Source: Microbacterium sp. SORGH_AS_0969
GTDB lineage: Bacteria > Actinomycetota > Actinomycetes > Actinomycetales > Microbacteriaceae
Assembly (NCBI RefSeq): GCF_030818255.1
Contig: NZ_JAUTAG010000001.1
Span: forward strand, 930,001 to 994,000
DNA: 64,000 nucleotides
Reading direction: 5' to 3'
Shown here: piece by piece, positions 1-8,648 of the stretch
Layout of the letters: each line of letters starts with the position of its first letter
How positions within the stretch are numbered: position 1 is the stretch's first letter
The notes under the pieces: generated by a model
Seen by the model: the letters and a program-made list of their open reading frames with translations, nothing else
Told to the model about the DNA's origin: nothing
Database searches by the model: none
Position numbers and translations under genes: made by a program

Positions 1-123
1 GGCCGCATCGGATTGTTCGACGGTCCAGCCGCGGAGTCGGAACCACTCGCCGACCTCTCGCCCTTCGAGCGGAATACGCCGCACGCGCCACGGCGACCGT
101 GGCGGGTGGCGGTCGCGTGTCAC
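1..123 (-). CDS. AraC-like regulator, N-terminal fragment (runs off the window)
   Basis: Only the first 41 codons lie in the window. Read from a GTG at 123 with GGAGA 7 nt upstream, the peptide contains PWRVRRIPLEGREVGEWF, which lines up with the N-terminus of the AraC-like regulator at 2008-2930 (PVWTIARVPLTGSAVVEWF). It also diverges from a Tat-exported repeat protein at almost the same distance (about 250 bp versus 230 bp). I infer it is a paralogue of that regulator and that regulator plus exported protein were duplicated as a unit. The DNA-binding part is outside the window, so the family call rests on the paralogue. Confidence 0.6.
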   Translation of the reverse strand, partial: MTRDRHPPRSPWRVRRIPLEGREVGEWFRLRGWTVEQSDAA

Positions 124-374: not shown

Positions 375-1616
375 ATGGAGAACGCCCCCGAAACTCCCGC
401 TGTCGACAGCGGACTCCCCCGCCGCACGGTGCTCACCGGCGCCGCCTGGACCATCCCCGTCATCGCCGCCGCCACTATCGCACCCACGGCGTCCGCCTCG
501 GGCACGCTGCAGCTCGCGTTCGACAAGACGACCTACAACGGCACCGCCTGCTCAACCATCACGGGCGCGTACGTGACCGCGACGACGAACGGCGTGCCGA
601 CGACGGGAGCGTCGATCACGGTAAGCCTGTCGAACAACTACACGTTCTCGGGCGGCTCGACGTCGGCTACCGGGCTGTCGGGGTCGAACGGGCGTTACAC
701 GTTGCCGGACATCAACGTGCCTGCCAGCGGAGGGAGCGGTGTGCTCAACGCACAATCCGGGAGCGCTTCAGCCAGCGGAGCAATCAGCGCTTCGGCTAAG
801 TCGGGGGGCCTCGGTTGGTATGACACCAGCCGTCAGTTCCACGCGGTCACCGCAAACATCCCCGCGGACTCCGTCCCCTACGGCGCCTGGTTCCTCACCC
901 AGGACGGACGCCTCCTCAACGCCGCAGACGCCGCCGTCAAAGGCACCGGAATCGCCACCGTCGGCCCGGAAATCGGCGGCTACTTCGGCGTCACCCTCAA
1001 AAACGGAGGGTACGGATGGTACGACACCCAACTCCAATTCCACACCGTCACCGCAAACATCCCCGCAAACTCCGTCCCCTACGGCGCCTGGTTCCTCACC
1101 CCAGACGGACGCCTCCTCAACGCCGCAGACGCCGCCGTCAAAGGCACCGGAATCGCCACCGTCGGCCCCGTCATCAACGACTACTTCGCCGTCACCCTTA
1201 AAAACGGAGGGTACGGATGGTACGACACCAGCCGTCAGTTCCACACGGTCACCGCAAACATCCCCGCGGACTCCGTCCCCTACGGCGCCTGGTTCCTCAC
1301 CCAGGACGGACGCCTCCTCAACGCCGCAGACGCCGCCGTCAAAGGCACCGGAATCGCCACCGTCGGCCCGGAAATCGGCGGCTACTTCGGCGTCACCCTC
1401 AAAAACGGAGGGTACGGATGGTACGACACCCAACTCCAATTCCACACCGTCACCGCAAACATCCCCGCAAACTCCGTCCCCTACGGCGCCTGGTTCCTCA
1501 CCCCAGACGGACGCCTCCTCAACGCCGCAGACGCCGCCGTCAAAGGCACCGGAATCGCCACCGTCGGCCCCGTCATCAACGACTACTTCGCCGTCACCCT
1601 CAAGGGAACCTGCTAA
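375..1616 (+). CDS. Tat-exported surface protein with four 67-aa repeats
   Basis: The product has 413 residues. RRTVLTG at residues 16-22 followed by a hydrophobic stretch and ASAS near 39-42 is a typical twin-arginine signal with a cleavage site. Residues 43-145 form a head that looks like a beta-sandwich (GTLQLAFDK, GRYTLPDINV). From residue 147 follow four 67-residue repeats in an A-B-A-B pattern, each with a GWYDT opening and a WFL-x-x-DGRLLNAADAAV core. There are exactly two cysteines, C59 in the head and C413 as the last residue. The ATG at 375 was chosen because of GAGGA just upstream and because the paralogue starts identically; the frame is open further upstream. Function is unknown; an exported, possibly cell-surface role is inferred. 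Confidence 0.8.
   Translation: MENAPETPAVDSGLPRRTVLTGAAWTIPVIAAATIAPTASASGTLQLAFDKTTYNGTACSTITGAYVTATTNGVPTTGASITVSLSNNYTFSGGSTSATGLSGSNGRYTLPDINVPASGGSGVLNAQSGSASASGAISASAKSGGLGWYDTSRQFHAVTANIPADSVPYGAWFLTQDGRLLNAADAAVKGTGIATVGPEIGGYFGVTLKNGGYGWYDTQLQFHTVTANIPANSVPYGAWFLTPDGRLLNAADAAVKGTGIATVGPVINDYFAVTLKNGGYGWYDTSRQFHTVTANIPADSVPYGAWFLTQDGRLLNAADAAVKGTGIATVGPEIGGYFGVTLKNGGYGWYDTQLQFHTVTANIPANSVPYGAWFLTPDGRLLNAADAAVKGTGIATVGPVINDYFAVTLKGTC
813..1613 (+). repeat. four 201-bp in-gene repeats (A-B-A-B)
   Basis: The unit starts GG[A/T]TGGTA[C/T]GACACC at 813, 1014, 1215 and 1416, an exact 201-bp period. Units 1 and 3 match each other and units 2 and 4 match each other almost to the base, giving a 402-bp higher-order duplication. 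The period is a multiple of three, so reading frames are kept and other frames also stay open. Confidence 0.95.
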
Positions 1617-1771: not shown

Positions 1772-1915
1772 GACGGGTGGGTCCTGATTTCCGATGGAAC
1801 GCTCTACTGGTCCCAGAACGGATCCACGTTCCCCGCCGCCGCGAATAACTTTGAGCGCCTTGCCGCCGCCGACAAGGCCAACATCTACGCGCTGAGCCAG
1901 CCTGCTGATGCGTGC
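1772..1915 (+). pseudogene. orphan tail fragment of a repeat-protein family member
   Basis: Reading from 1772 gives a 48-residue stretch containing DGWVLISDGTLYWSQNGS and ending ...IYALSQPADAC. It has the W-x3-DG-x-L pattern of the tails of both flanking repeat proteins and ends in a cysteine like them. It has no head, no start codon with a ribosome binding site, and no stop directly after the cysteine. Upstream in another frame, LTPDGGTATAAKAI may be more of the same tail after a frameshift. I read it as the displaced 3-prime end of an older family member, or a silent tail cassette. Confidence 0.45.
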
Positions 1916-2007: not shown

Positions 2008-2930
2008 TCACCGCGCGAGGGCGTGCGTGAGCGCCCGTTCCGAGGAGAAGCCGGCGAGTTTCGCGACACTCGCCAGGGGAAAGTCAGGGTCGGCGGCGAG
2101 CAGCATGCGGGCCAGGCGGAGCCGTTCCTCGCGGAGCATCTGTCCCGGCGATCGGCCGTGCGCGGCGAAGGCGCGCTCCAACTGCCGACGCGTCGCGCCC
2201 AGGCGTTCGGCGAGACGATCGACGGTGAGATCGACGTGCATCGCTCCCGACGCGATGACGACCGATGCGCGGTCGTAGAGGTCGGCGTAGTCGACGGTCT
2301 CGCGAGATCGAGCACGGGGTGAAGCGCGTAGCGCTCCGGCCTCGGCGCGAGCGGCGGCGATGAGAGCTTCAACGGATGCCGCGACCGCGGTCGCAACGCT
2401 GATTACCCCCCCCCCCCCCCCCCCCCCGAAACGGGGGTGTGGAAGAGGGCGTTGACGGCCGACAGGATCATGGTGGCCGACACCAACTCGCCGTTGCCGT
2501 GTACCCACGCGGGCGAACGGTCGTGCGCGCGATAGTCGATCTCGACGCGCGCGATCGGCTCGTCGGATACGAGCGAGAAGGCCTGCCCGCCGGGGAGGAA
2601 GACGACGTCGTTGGGGCCGAGAGTAACTTCGGTGTCATCGCCGAGCGAAAGCCGTGCCTCCCCGGCGACCTGCACGAGAAGCGTGTCCCGCGTGCTCATG
2701 GTGTTCGCGGCGGGGCGGGTGAGGCTCAGCGGCGTGTGCCAGATCCGTCGCACCGAGACCTCGGCGACGTCCGCCTCATCAATGAACGCGTGACTGCGCG
2801 CGAGGTCGCCACGGGCATCGATCCCGCGGGCTGTGAACCACTCGACGACGGCGGACCCGGTGAGTGGAACACGGGCGATCGTCCACACGGGTTCGCGGCG
2901 CCGAGAGCCCGATGCACCGGGCTCGCTCAT
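2008..2930 (-). CDS. AraC-family regulator split by a poly-G tract (phase-variable candidate)
   Basis: The N-terminal part (ATG at 2930, about 167 residues) has the cupin-like ligand-binding fold of AraC_binding_2 regulators (LTRPAANTMSTRDTLLVQ, LPGGQAFSL). After HTPVS the frame enters 22 consecutive G residues, makes seven glycines and stops at TAA (2405-2403). The DNA-binding part lies in another frame from the tract to TGA at 2010-2008, with LTVDRLAERLGATRRQLERA and VAKLAGFSSERAL. A tract of 20 or 23 G would join the two parts into about 306 or 307 residues, with a polyglycine linker between the domains. As sequenced the gene is OFF. It diverges from the repeat protein at 3161 and probably regulates it. 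The second helix-turn-helix ends a little early for the family. The tract length could be a sequencing error. Confidence 0.75.
2406..2427 (-). repeat. 22-nt homopolymer (C on plus, G on coding strand)
   Basis: Twenty-two uninterrupted C residues on the plus strand, inside the AraC-like gene at the junction of its two domains. A homopolymer this long is expected to slip during replication. Current length puts the regulator out of frame. Confidence 0.9.
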
Positions 2931-3079
2931 GCGGTCTCCCCTCCACGATGCGTAGGGACCGAATCTAGACGCCGCGATTCACCGCGGGAAGCTGCTTCAC
3001 CCTCTCTCCCTGACTGCGGCGTTCGGGAGTCACCCGCTGCCCACCCGCTGAGGCCGGCTCCCGACAGCACGCACCATCT

Positions 3080-3160
3080 TGCGACACCGTTTGCGCCGCA
3101 GAGGGGGATGCACGGCTGGATGTGAGACGCAACATCACCCGACCCCGAGAGGACCTCCCC
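3080..3160 (+). promoter_or_regulatory. conserved leader of Tat repeat protein gene 2
   Basis: This is the paralogous leader to 294-374 (GCACGGCTGGATGTGA, AACATCACCC, GAGAGGA). It lies in the 230-bp divergent region between the AraC-like regulator and the repeat protein, the natural place for that regulator to bind. Confidence 0.5.
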
Positions 3161-5044
3161 ATGGAGAACACCCCCGAATTCCCTGCCGTCGATGCCGGCC
3201 TCCCCCGCCGCACGGTGCTCACTGGCGCCGCCTGGACCATCCCGGTCATCGCCGCCGCCACCATCGCCCCTGCCGCATCCGCGTCGGGCACGCTTCAGCT
3301 GGCGTTCGACAAGAGCACCTATAACGGCACGGCCTGCTCGACCATCACCGGCGCCTACGTGACGGCGACGACCAACGGGGTGCCGACGACAGGAGCGTCG
3401 ATCACGGTGAGCTTGTCGAACAATTACACGTTCTCGGGCGGCTCGACCACGGCCACCGGCTACTCCGACACGAACGGGCGGTATACGCTGCCGGACATCA
3501 ACGTGGCGGCGGCGGGTGGGACAGCTGCCGTTACGGCGACCTCGGGATCGTCGACCGGGACCGCGACTCTCAGCGCGCCCGCCGTTCCTGATGAAGTCCC
3601 GCAAGACGGGAGCGTGGCGCTGACCGGGCTACCCGCCGGAGTCACCGCCACCCAGATCGCCCGCCAGAACACCGCCAACGGCGGCGTCATCTGGGTACGC
3701 GGCAGCGATAACAACCTCTACGGCGTCACCCGAACCTCCACCGCCGTCACGACACTGACCCGACAGTTCACCAACGCCAACTCGTTCTACTCCACCCCCA
3801 ACAGCGACGCCATCGGATGGATCACCACCAGCGGGACCCCCATGGACGGGAGCGTGGCGCTGACCGGGCTACCCGCCGGAGTCACCGCCACCCAGATCGC
3901 CCGCCAGAACACCGCCAACGGCGGCGTCATCTGGGTACGCGGCAGCGATAACAACCTCTACGGCGTCACCCGAACCTCCACCGCCGTCACGACACTGACC
4001 CGACAGTTCACCAACGCCAACTCGTTCTACTCCACCCCCAACAGCGACGCCATCGGATGGATCACCACCAGCGGGACCCCCATGGACGGGAGCGTGGCGC
4101 TGACCGGGCTACCCGCCGGAGTCACCGCCACCCAGATCGCCCGCCAGAACACCGCCAACGGCGGCGTCATCTGGGTACGCGGCAGCGATAACAACCTCTA
4201 CGGCGTCACCCGAACCTCCACCGCCGTCACGACACTGACCCGACAGTTCACCAACGCCAACTCGTTCTACTCCACCCCCAACAGCGACGCCATCGGATGG
4301 ATCACCACCAGCGGGACCCCCATGGACGGGAGCGTGGCGCTGACCGGGCTACCCGCCGGAGTCACCGCCACCCAGATCGCCCGCCAGAACACCGCCAACG
4401 GCGGCGTCATCTGGGTACGCGGCAGCGATAACAACCTCTACGGCGTCACCCGAACCTCCACCGCCGTCACGACACTGACCCGACAGTTCACCAACGCCAA
4501 CTCGTTCTACTCCACCCCCAACAGCGACGCCATCGGATGGATCACCACCAGCGGGACCCCCATGGACGGGAGCGTGGCGCTGACCGGGCTACCCGCCGGA
4601 GTCACCGCCACCCAGATCGCCCGCCAGAACACCGCCAACGGCGGCGTCATCTGGGTACGCGGCAGCGATAACAACCTCTACGGCGTCACCCGAACCTCCA
4701 CCGCCGTCACGACACTGACCCGACAGTTCACCAACGCCAACTCGTTCTACTCCACCCCCAACAGCGACGCCATCGGATGGATCACCACCAGCGGGACCCC
4801 CATGGACGGGAGCGTGGCGCTGACCGGGCTACCCGCCGGAGTCACCGCCACCCAGATCGCCCGCCAGAACACCGCCAACGGCGGCGTCATCTGGGTACGC
4901 GGCAGCGATAACAACCTCTACGGCGTCACCCGAACCTCCACCGCCGTCACGACACTGACCCGACAGTTCACCAACGCCAACTCGTTCTACTCCACCCCCA
5001 ACAGCGACGCCATCGGATGGATTGCGCAGGCGGCGTGCTCCTAA
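3161..5044 (+). CDS. Tat-exported surface protein with six identical 80-aa repeats
   Basis: The product has 627 residues. Residues 1-145 match the signal and head of the protein at 375-1616 (RRTVLTG at 16-22, C59, GRYTLPDINV). The tail is unrelated: six 80-residue repeats, each with LTGLPAGVTATQIARQ, GGVIWVRGSDNNLYGV and DAIGWI. The last repeat diverges into IAQAACS at the C-terminus. Only two cysteines are present, C59 and C626, mirroring the other protein, so a head-to-tail disulfide is plausible. Six blades of this size could form a propeller, but this is a guess. The ATG is preceded by GAGAGGA. The adjacent AraC-like gene is the likely regulator. Confidence 0.8.
   Translation: MENTPEFPAVDAGLPRRTVLTGAAWTIPVIAAATIAPAASASGTLQLAFDKSTYNGTACSTITGAYVTATTNGVPTTGASITVSLSNNYTFSGGSTTATGYSDTNGRYTLPDINVAAAGGTAAVTATSGSSTGTATLSAPAVPDEVPQDGSVALTGLPAGVTATQIARQNTANGGVIWVRGSDNNLYGVTRTSTAVTTLTRQFTNANSFYSTPNSDAIGWITTSGTPMDGSVALTGLPAGVTATQIARQNTANGGVIWVRGSDNNLYGVTRTSTAVTTLTRQFTNANSFYSTPNSDAIGWITTSGTPMDGSVALTGLPAGVTATQIARQNTANGGVIWVRGSDNNLYGVTRTSTAVTTLTRQFTNANSFYSTPNSDAIGWITTSGTPMDGSVALTGLPAGVTATQIARQNTANGGVIWVRGSDNNLYGVTRTSTAVTTLTRQFTNANSFYSTPNSDAIGWITTSGTPMDGSVALTGLPAGVTATQIARQNTANGGVIWVRGSDNNLYGVTRTSTAVTTLTRQFTNANSFYSTPNSDAIGWITTSGTPMDGSVALTGLPAGVTATQIARQNTANGGVIWVRGSDNNLYGVTRTSTAVTTLTRQFTNANSFYSTPNSDAIGWIAQAACS
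3605..5022 (+). repeat. six 240-bp in-gene repeats with no visible differences
   Basis: Copies start at 3605, 3845, 4085, 4325, 4565 and 4805. I compared them line by line and found no base difference until 5023 in the last copy, including at silent sites. Such identity implies very recent expansion or ongoing homogenisation. Copy number may differ from the true genome if short reads were used. Confidence 0.95.
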
Positions 5045-7572: not shown

Positions 7573-8648
7573 GACCGTGCGCCCTTTCCGGTGGATTCGG
7601 CGGCGAGGCGCTGCTTCGCCGCACGAGAGGCGGCACGACGCTGAGCACGGGTGAGGCCGTCGCGAGCGCCCTCGTCACGCACGAGCGAGCGGCTGATGAA
7701 GAGGTTGACCGCCCCGATGACGAGGATGATGAGGAAGAGGATCCACGCGAGCGCGGCCGCCCGACCGAAGTTCCACTCGCCCCACCCGAGCTTGTAAAGG
7801 TAGAGCGAGATCGTCAGCCATTGGTTGTTGGACCCGCCGGTGCCGCCCTGGTCGAACATGCGCGGCTCGTCGAAGATCTGCAGGCCGCCGATGGTCGACG
7901 TGATGACGACGAAGATGAGGGTCGGCTTGAGGCTCGGCAGCGTGATCGAGAAGAACTGACGGACCTTGCCCGCACCGTCGACCGTGGCCGCCTCGTAGTA
8001 CTCGCGCGGGACGGCCTGCATGGCGGCGAGCAGGATGAGGGTGTTGTAGCCGGTCCAGCGGAAGTTGACCATCGTCGCGATGGCGATGTGGCTGGCGAAG
8101 GTGTCGGAGTGCCATCCGACCCCGGGGAGGCCGATGCGGCCGAGCAGGGTGTTCACGATGCCGTACTGGTCGCCGAACATGTTGCTGAAGATCAGCGCGA
8201 CGGCGACGGGGGCCATGACGTACGGGACGAGGACGCCCATTCGCCAGAGGGTCTTCGCCCGGATGTTCTGGTCGAGCATCGCCGCGATGAAGACCGCGAA
8301 GATCAGCTGCGGCACGGTCGACAGCACGAAGATGCTGAAGGTGTTGCGCAGGGCGTCCCAGAACGCGGGCTGGGAGAGCACGTAGGCGTACTGGTCGAAG
8401 CCGACGAAGGTGCCCGAGCCCCGGATCTGGTCCCAGTCCATGAACGAGATGACGCCCGTGTACAGGATCGGGAAGAGGCCCGTGACGATGAAGAGGATGA
8501 AGAACGGGGAGATGTAGAGGTACGGGGAAAGCTTCAGATCCCAGGCGCTGAGCTTCGAGCCGAACCCGACGCGTCGGGGCGTGCGAGCGGGGGGACCGTC
8601 GGGGGCGGATGCCGCGGGGTTCGCGGGCGGCTGCAGTGTCGTGGTCAT
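7569..8648 (-). CDS. cebF: ABC sugar permease (CebF/MalF-like)
   Basis: A 359-residue permease with a polar N-terminus, about six membrane segments and the EAA loop EYYEAATVDGAGKVRQFF. The ATG at 8648 was preferred over upstream in-frame codons because GGAAGGAAA precedes it. The C-terminus overlaps the next permease by ATGA. A hairpin separates it from the upstream binding-protein gene, probably lowering its expression relative to the binding protein. The long basic C-terminal tail (LTRAQRRAASRAAKQRL) is common in actinobacterial MalF-type permeases. Confidence 0.88.
   Translation of the reverse strand: MTTTLQPPANPAASAPDGPPARTPRRVGFGSKLSAWDLKLSPYLYISPFFILFIVTGLFPILYTGVISFMDWDQIRGSGTFVGFDQYAYVLSQPAFWDALRNTFSIFVLSTVPQLIFAVFIAAMLDQNIRAKTLWRMGVLVPYVMAPVAVALIFSNMFGDQYGIVNTLLGRIGLPGVGWHSDTFASHIAIATMVNFRWTGYNTLILLAAMQAVPREYYEAATVDGAGKVRQFFSITLPSLKPTLIFVVITSTIGGLQIFDEPRMFDQGGTGGSNNQWLTISLYLYKLGWGEWNFGRAAALAWILFLIILVIGAVNLFISRSLVRDEGARDGLTRAQRRAASRAAKQRLAAESTGKGARS

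Follow-up and report, generated by a model that had tools for sequence, protein, structure and literature searches.

The window analysed here is a 64,000-nucleotide stretch of the Microbacterium sp. SORGH_AS_0969 genome (C1:930001-994000), and it carries at its left end two regulator genes that are each divergent from a gene for a tandem-repeat protein, AraC-A from Surf2 and AraC-B from Surf1. As assembled, AraC-A is split into two parts on the (−) strand. The sensor part with its tract (2403..2930) encodes a 175-aa product with a cupin domain that ends in GGGGGGG and a stop, and the downstream part (2008..2406; 132 codons plus stop) encodes a helix and then an AraC-type HTH. At the junction is a homopolymer of 22 G, presumably a contingency tract, which is read directly from the sequence as C22 on the (+) strand (2406..2427). 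Upstream of AraC-A, an intergenic region (2931..3160) leads to Surf2 (3161..5044, (+) strand), a secreted protein whose leader contains PRRTVLTG, by its motif presumably of the twin-arginine type. The leader is followed by an all-beta N domain and 5.9 tandem 240-bp (80-aa) repeats (3605..5022, (+) strand), five of them base-identical and the sixth matching at 224 of 240 bases. Surf1 (375..1616, (+) strand), a Surf2 paralogue with a different 67-aa (201-bp) repeat, lies beside the sister regulator AraC-B, whose 5′ end falls in the window (1..123, (−) strand) and whose remainder lies beyond the left edge. The C-termini of Surf1 and Surf2, read directly, lack LPXTG. Between Surf1 and AraC-A there is also a Surf repeat relic (1775..1903, (+) strand), which matches the last repeat of an M. 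testaceum Surf protein of another type (P0051) with 86% identity over 43 aa. This hints that repeats may be exchanged as cassettes among Surf genes.

The AraC-A/Surf2 intergenic region has a CGACA core, which is present in all five intergenic modules that we aligned, and TTGCGACAC is present in three (the row of M. testaceum NS283 stops short of the Surf start). A sigma-70-like scan of 2931..3160 gave no match. An inverted repeat spotted by eye in the intergenic region of one relative was only partly conserved and was dropped. The AraC-A/Surf2 intergenic region contains no long homopolymer: besides G22 no run in the window exceeds 6, and in the Surf leader regions runs are no longer than 5.

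We found that AraC-A is OFF in this assembly, with TAA following the seven glycines immediately 3′ of the tract. The three frames behind G22 are the HTH frame, open for 132 codons, an immediate stop, and a stop after 12 codons; the downstream part is in a different frame from the sensor part, yet it is open and conserved. The initial annotation had described a 22-G homopolymer inside an AraC-type regulator, and this is borne out by the C22 at 2406-2427 and by matches to PF12833 and PF12852. The 175-aa ORF at 2403-2930(−) likewise stops after seven glycines as it had stated, and its arithmetic, in which 20 or 23 G reads through, was correct: one length class in three enters the HTH. PF12833 (AraC HTH) matched the downstream part with 48.2 bits against a cut-off of 33.6 and an intact homologue from NS283 with 40.9 bits. 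PF12852 (Cupin_6) matched the sensor part with 29.8 bits against a cut-off of 26.7, and scored 22.5, under the cut-off, on the NS283 protein, whose N part is beta-rich in a structural model. By its HTH and cupin-type sensor domain AraC-A is an AraC/XylS family regulator, with DNA binding and transcription control as putative functions.

The tract is more than a product of chance, since under a model of independent bases G/C runs of at least 22 are expected 6.9e-6 times per window and 4.3e-4 times per genome, the real decay of run lengths in the window is steeper than this model, and no other homopolymer in the 64 kb, whichever the base, is longer than 6. Across the whole genome (one contig, 3,939,785 bases) there are seven sites with G/C runs of at least 9. 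Runs of at least 12 number three, and two of these are the AraC-A tract and its counterpart in AraC-B. The third is a G34 within C9G34 (C1:2242855-2242897; L032:5855-5897), 56 bases upstream of a 246-aa ORF (L032:5058-5798, (−) strand) that appears membrane-bound by eye and has no Pfam or NCBIfam match; C9G34 is possibly a promoter-spacing tract or an artefact.

The AraC-B tract is a G14 (C14 on the (+) strand) at C1:929590-929603, 398-411 bases to the left of window base 1. It lies 2.8 kb from the AraC-A tract and at the equivalent site in its gene, which is OFF as well. The two tracts have the flank G(n)TAAT[C/T]AGC in common, although the proteins are only 54% identical in the sensor and 57% in the HTH part. 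We compared tract lengths among paralogues and species, with one genome per species. A sensor-part profile matched in 8 of 247 Microbacterium genomes at 1e-10 and the intact NS283 protein in 12 of 366 at 1e-20; the NS283 query matched in a family-wide draw of 398 genomes only in the window's own genome, and a plasmid collection gave no match to the AraC-A sensor part. Seven copies of the A/B class were found in six of the 366 genomes, and every one of them either carries the tract or is cut off by a contig end within it or at its edge. Where the assembly runs through, the lengths are G22 and G14 (own genome), G14 (NS283) and G19 (G198). The G14 of M. testaceum NS283 is in frame and yields an intact 304-aa regulator, and the G19 is out of frame in a third way, with a product of 202 aa. 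Three draft assemblies break at the regulator tract: in Microbacterium sp. 5K110 it is flanked by contig ends, in G009 a contig starts with G12 and the shared flank, and in G055 a contig terminates in a 15-base run, the last two having only the downstream part recovered.

In a protein collection, where searches scored the 7991-7996 candidates with most shared words, six matches were obtained at 1e-10 among the candidates scored. These were the NS283 protein, the window's own 175-aa fragment, two truncated sensor parts (P0003 and P0005), one distant protein, and P0002, an M. testaceum regulator with HASVARAEMSVATA at the site in place of a tract, which shows that the tract can be absent. Truncated copies such as P0003 and P0005 enter databases as 'hypothetical protein', and draft assemblies break at tracts of this kind. 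In P0003 (which ends VSGGGAPMTFVKL), P0005 and P0037, unrelated residues begin at or beside the glycine run; these look like copies joined to unrelated sequence at the tract, either by rearrangement or recombination with a breakpoint there or by misassembly. A distant AraC homologue (L092, G171) has a G11 at 2383-2393 near its 5′ end and a tract-free loop.

These comparisons bear on whether the G22 is an assembly or sequencing artefact, the true tract being shorter or in frame and the gene an ordinary intact regulator. Sequencing is known to handle long runs of G poorly. Poly-G runs of at least 12 occurred in 135 of 244 Microbacterium genomes, and of 30 poly-G loci that we read, about 14, in the analyst's reading, abutted a contig end or N or formed part of a G/C mosaic. 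Some tracts in the genus are therefore artefacts, and others lie outside the regulator/Surf system. A Surf2 identical to that of the window (P0045) is also found on a record of 3,939,786 bases, one base longer and perhaps another version of the genome. The tract recurs at the equivalent site in AraC-B, within the same assembly, and in assemblies of other species, and draft contigs break exactly there, which argues that the exact length may be wrong but the tract itself hardly so, and we consider an artefact very unlikely.

We next consider selection on the two parts of the gene. Between the window's AraC-A (OFF) and the NS283 regulator (ON), Nei-Gojobori dN/dS was 0.19 before the tract and 0.11 behind it. 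The ratio ranged from 0.11 to 0.61 for the downstream parts (21 pairs among the seven copies) and from 0.17 to 0.61 for the sensor parts (ten pairs); many pairs are near synonymous saturation, so that weight rests on the A-A pair, with dS of about 0.6. Downstream parts were open for 132-151 codons in all seven copies. Purifying selection behind the tract indicates that AraC-A is not decaying. A pseudogene, decaying or fixed OFF through neutral expansion of a tract in a dispensable regulator, would fit the out-of-frame assemblies of AraC-A, AraC-B and the G198 copy, but the low ratio behind the tract, the frames open in every copy, the intact NS283 protein and the further tracts in the regulator/Surf system (below) make this highly improbable. 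Long homopolymer runs can also slip in transcription or translation, and the reference list of PMC9187656 names work on such slippage. Slippage of RNA polymerase or ribosome could thus express a constant full-length fraction in every cell from unchanged DNA. This would require a fixed phase, yet the NS283 tract is in frame and those of the window and G198 are in two different wrong frames. We regard programmed slippage as a very improbable sole explanation, while slippage of this kind may add leakiness to a switch in the DNA.

To place the tract within the protein, we used an AlphaFold2 model of the NS283 regulator (36 aligned proteins, mean pLDDT 80.6, pTM 0.60). The model has a beta-rich, cupin-like barrel, a helix (150-164), the glycine loop (165-172), a second helix (173-200), a stretch of low confidence (202-206), and an HTH domain from about residue 212. 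Its best PDB match was the AraC-like activator CuxR (5nla; Foldseek E 6.1e-9, TM 0.44/0.48), with 16% identity and an rmsd of 15 across both domains, and further matches were AraC-type regulators (ToxT, CsvR, Rns) and cupins. The tract had been proposed to lie exactly between the ligand-binding and DNA-binding domains; judged from this homologue it lies instead in a loop between two helices, ahead of the HTH. Extra residues are likely tolerated in this loop of the sensor's helical part, and among 13 aligned homologues, the 12 without a tract have loops that fall 2-3 residues short of the NS283 loop.

This position also bears on a second proposal, that slippage varies the length of a linker and tunes the regulator among in-frame lengths, instead of or besides switching it. 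The arithmetic stands, in that the in-frame third of lengths adds or removes one loop glycine for every three bases, and a related regulator (G070, below) carries eight in-frame prolines. The tuning is weakened by the site being an inter-helix loop, by the shorter and different loops of P0002 and distant homologues, and by the fact that most slippage events break the frame. The inter-helix position makes linker tuning less likely than on/off switching; it is possible but secondary, and as a main explanation we think it unlikely.

Of 366 Microbacterium genomes, 43 contained the N domain of the partner proteins, the Surf family, at 1e-10. An AlphaFold2 model of Surf1 was all beta (mean pLDDT 87.2), and its PDB matches were weak (TM about 0.2-0.4), with many propellers by name (RCC1-like, WD-repeat, tectonin) and others to complement proteins and invasin. 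Short matches on the Surf1 and Surf2 repeats to Pfam (RBD_RDR6, N4_GP8, DUF995, DUF346) and NCBIfam (GloVer and others) were judged to be repeat artefacts. The A-class partners have repeat regions that are alike (window and NS283, 52% over 46 aa), and so do the B-class partners (window, G198 and 5K110), whereas A and B repeats are unlike; regulator class pairs with repeat type, A with A and B with B. Of 86 Surf rows in total, 75 had at least 1.2 kb of upstream sequence (the duplicates L096 and L149 have too little sequence upstream to be counted here). A divergent AraC gene of the regulator family lay within 1.5 kb in 18 of the 75, one of which (G347, L144) has an extra ORF in between, and 57 were without one. 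The count was again 18 of 75 when it was repeated without the G070 and G347 regulators as queries.

Tracts were also found elsewhere in this system. In G070 (one contig), the AraC partner has a C21 that is read in frame as eight prolines, immediately ahead of the segment aligning with the first helix. In G347, an AraC gene has a G42 directly before its HTH part and out of frame with it, and the HTH behind exceeds the PF12833 cut-off. Both belong with the AraC-A/B family when self-hits are left out (E 4e-23 for the G070 regulator, 2e-13 and 1e-16 for the two pieces of the G347 regulator). Poly-C tracts were found in Surf leaders as well, where they lie between the ATG and the twin arginines. 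A C16 in G361 leads to a stop after 19 aa; in G347, a C14 leads to a stop after 21 aa, a C9 (L142) to a stop after 16 aa, and a C26 is in frame (435 aa); and a C7 in G305 is in frame (458 aa). Contigs of G055, G009 and 5K110 terminate in a C run at the Surf leader site, though such contig-end runs may be artefactual in part; another 5K110 contig stops a few bases short of the site. The Surf genes with an assembled leader tract number five, and all of them lack an AraC partner of the regulator family. The Surf genes next to an AraC gene with a tract have leader runs of 5 at most.

In frame were three of the nine tracts of at least 12 in the regulator/Surf system that were assembled through, or four of 11 with the C9 and C7 leader tracts added. 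The count leaves out an interrupted C6TC7 (L162 leader), a G8 before a start codon (L179), and the tracts at contig ends (L116/L149, L152, L153, L141). The assembled length of a long homopolymer is not to be relied on, and a proportion of three in nine, as random phase predicts, would also arise from random length errors.

The flank of the regulator tracts extends to some of the leader tracts. The pattern G8-TAWT-N(0,1)-AGC occurred at eight places in 7 of 355 Microbacterium genomes, six of them at A/B regulator tracts and two at tracts in Surf leaders, where it lies on the non-coding strand of Surf. The pattern was found nowhere outside these tracts in the 355 genomes, and a reversed control gave no match. 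Orthology accounts for the likeness among copies within each gene but not for that between AraC and Surf, which is possibly chance. Alternatively, G(n)TAWT(N)AGC could be a functional site, or the signature of a tract cassette that can be transferred.

How far long runs are exclusive to the system varied among the window's own genome and 12 others compared with it, six of the 12 having been picked for tracts in the system. Runs of at least 12 lay inside the regulator/Surf system in two of three cases in the window's own genome, three of three in G347, one of one in both G198 and NS283, one of three in G070, and one of 19 in G361, where many runs are in close pairs and artefact-like. Four further genomes, all with Surf genes (G234, G093, G007 and G185), had 5, 2, 6 and 1 such runs, and 0 of these 14 were at Surf places; G305, G121 and G083 had no G/C runs of at least 12. 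Homopolymers in the genus are thus not confined to this system, and in several genomes most or all are inside it. Among the poly-G loci listed, some runs lie near putative signal peptides of other proteins (e.g. a C20 in G007, L207), and others are paired G and C runs that are artefact-like.

Slipped-strand mispairing at G tracts is established. Features that go with a contingency locus are found at AraC-A, namely a coding repeat that sets the frame, copies that differ in length (22, 14, 14 and 19), and dN/dS of 0.11 behind it. We consider it likely that the AraC-A tract is a simple-sequence contingency locus for slipped-strand phase variation of a surface protein via its regulator, with both the switching and the control of Surf being what sequence comparison leads us to infer. 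The initial annotation had read slippage as a switch of the regulator. On/off switching is well supported by comparison, through the lengths and phases in paralogues and species, the in-frame copy, the evidence for selection and the other tracts, and the part concerning the linker fared less well, as described above. Mispairing during replication would gain or lose G residues, so that one length class in three would give a complete AraC-type regulator and the other two a truncated sensor lacking the DNA-binding domain. To judge from position and pairing, the intact regulator most likely controls the divergent Surf2, and with either sign of control a clone would be a mixture of Surf2-high and Surf2-low cells. 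AraC-B and Surf1 would be a second, independent switch, allowing up to four states, and the biological role would be surface variation. The window's genome has a match to NucS and none to MutS_V (the same searches matched in 7 and 11 of 14 control genomes). In Mycobacterium smegmatis, NucS leaves 1-2 bp indels unrepaired (PMC11551767). With NucS and without MutS_V, such indels would be left unrepaired, and length change at high frequency is expected.

The best reading of the tracts together is that surface proteins may vary in phase in trans, through the regulator, or in cis, through the leader. Tracts at three sites in the regulator family, and in partner leaders, are good evidence for selection on switching. 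More tentatively, and with somewhat less than even confidence, we suggest a stochastic surface-coat system in which several members of the Surf family are switched by homopolymers, either in cis or in trans, and in which tracts had at least three independent origins in the regulator and one or more in the leaders. Just as provisional are the suggestions that the Surf proteins are fast-diversifying, combining an all-beta N domain with propeller-like repeats, and that the regulator tracts perhaps sit in three different loops. Our verdict is that AraC-A belongs to a larger switching system that has evolved repeatedly around secreted repeat proteins. If true, switching in trans through a dedicated local regulator would let one slippage event govern whether a promoter fires.

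Microbacterium is an environmental actinobacterial genus, and classical contingency loci are mostly known from host-adapted bacteria. If the switch is real, such a genus uses classical contingency loci, with the switch in an AraC regulator as well as in a surface gene. In the open-licence literature we found no description of phase variation in Microbacterium or Microbacteriaceae, nor of a poly-G tract with frameshift in the AraC family, which agrees with the earlier remark that little is known in Microbacteriaceae. The phylum does, however, have a demonstrated case. In the closest one that we found, a G-tract switch of a Bifidobacterium breve sortase pilus was shown by maximum depth sequencing (PMC9187656). 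The likeness lies in an intragenic G-tract, replication slippage and a surface structure, in an actinobacterium; there the tract is in the pilus genes themselves, whereas here a dedicated regulator with AraC HTH and cupin matches is split and would do the switching. Many length-variable homopolymers are also described for Cutibacterium acnes, where 96% are G/C, and for Gardnerella, where they lie near surface-protein genes and some regulators, and the accessible portions of these sources hold no such divergent AraC/repeat-protein module (PMC4746626, PMC11287997).

The closest analogue that we found comes from another phylum. In Streptococcus pyogenes, the AraC-family gene Spy1337 and Spy1336-R28 flank an intergenic poly-T, with 9T giving low and 10T high expression (PMC7098570). 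There too an AraC gene is divergent from that of a tandem-repeat surface protein, with repeats of 79 aa against 80 aa in Surf2, and homopolymer length sets expression, as it would here. In S. pyogenes the poly-T tract sits between the two genes and affects transcript levels, in contrast to tracts inside the regulator coding sequence or the Surf leader here, and R28 has YSIRK and LPXTG, whereas Surf1 and Surf2 have a twin-arginine-type leader and no LPXTG. The likeness concerns layout and repeat size. Such convergence with the streptococcal AraC/R28 pair poses the question of why repeat surface proteins pair with homopolymer-switched AraC regulators.
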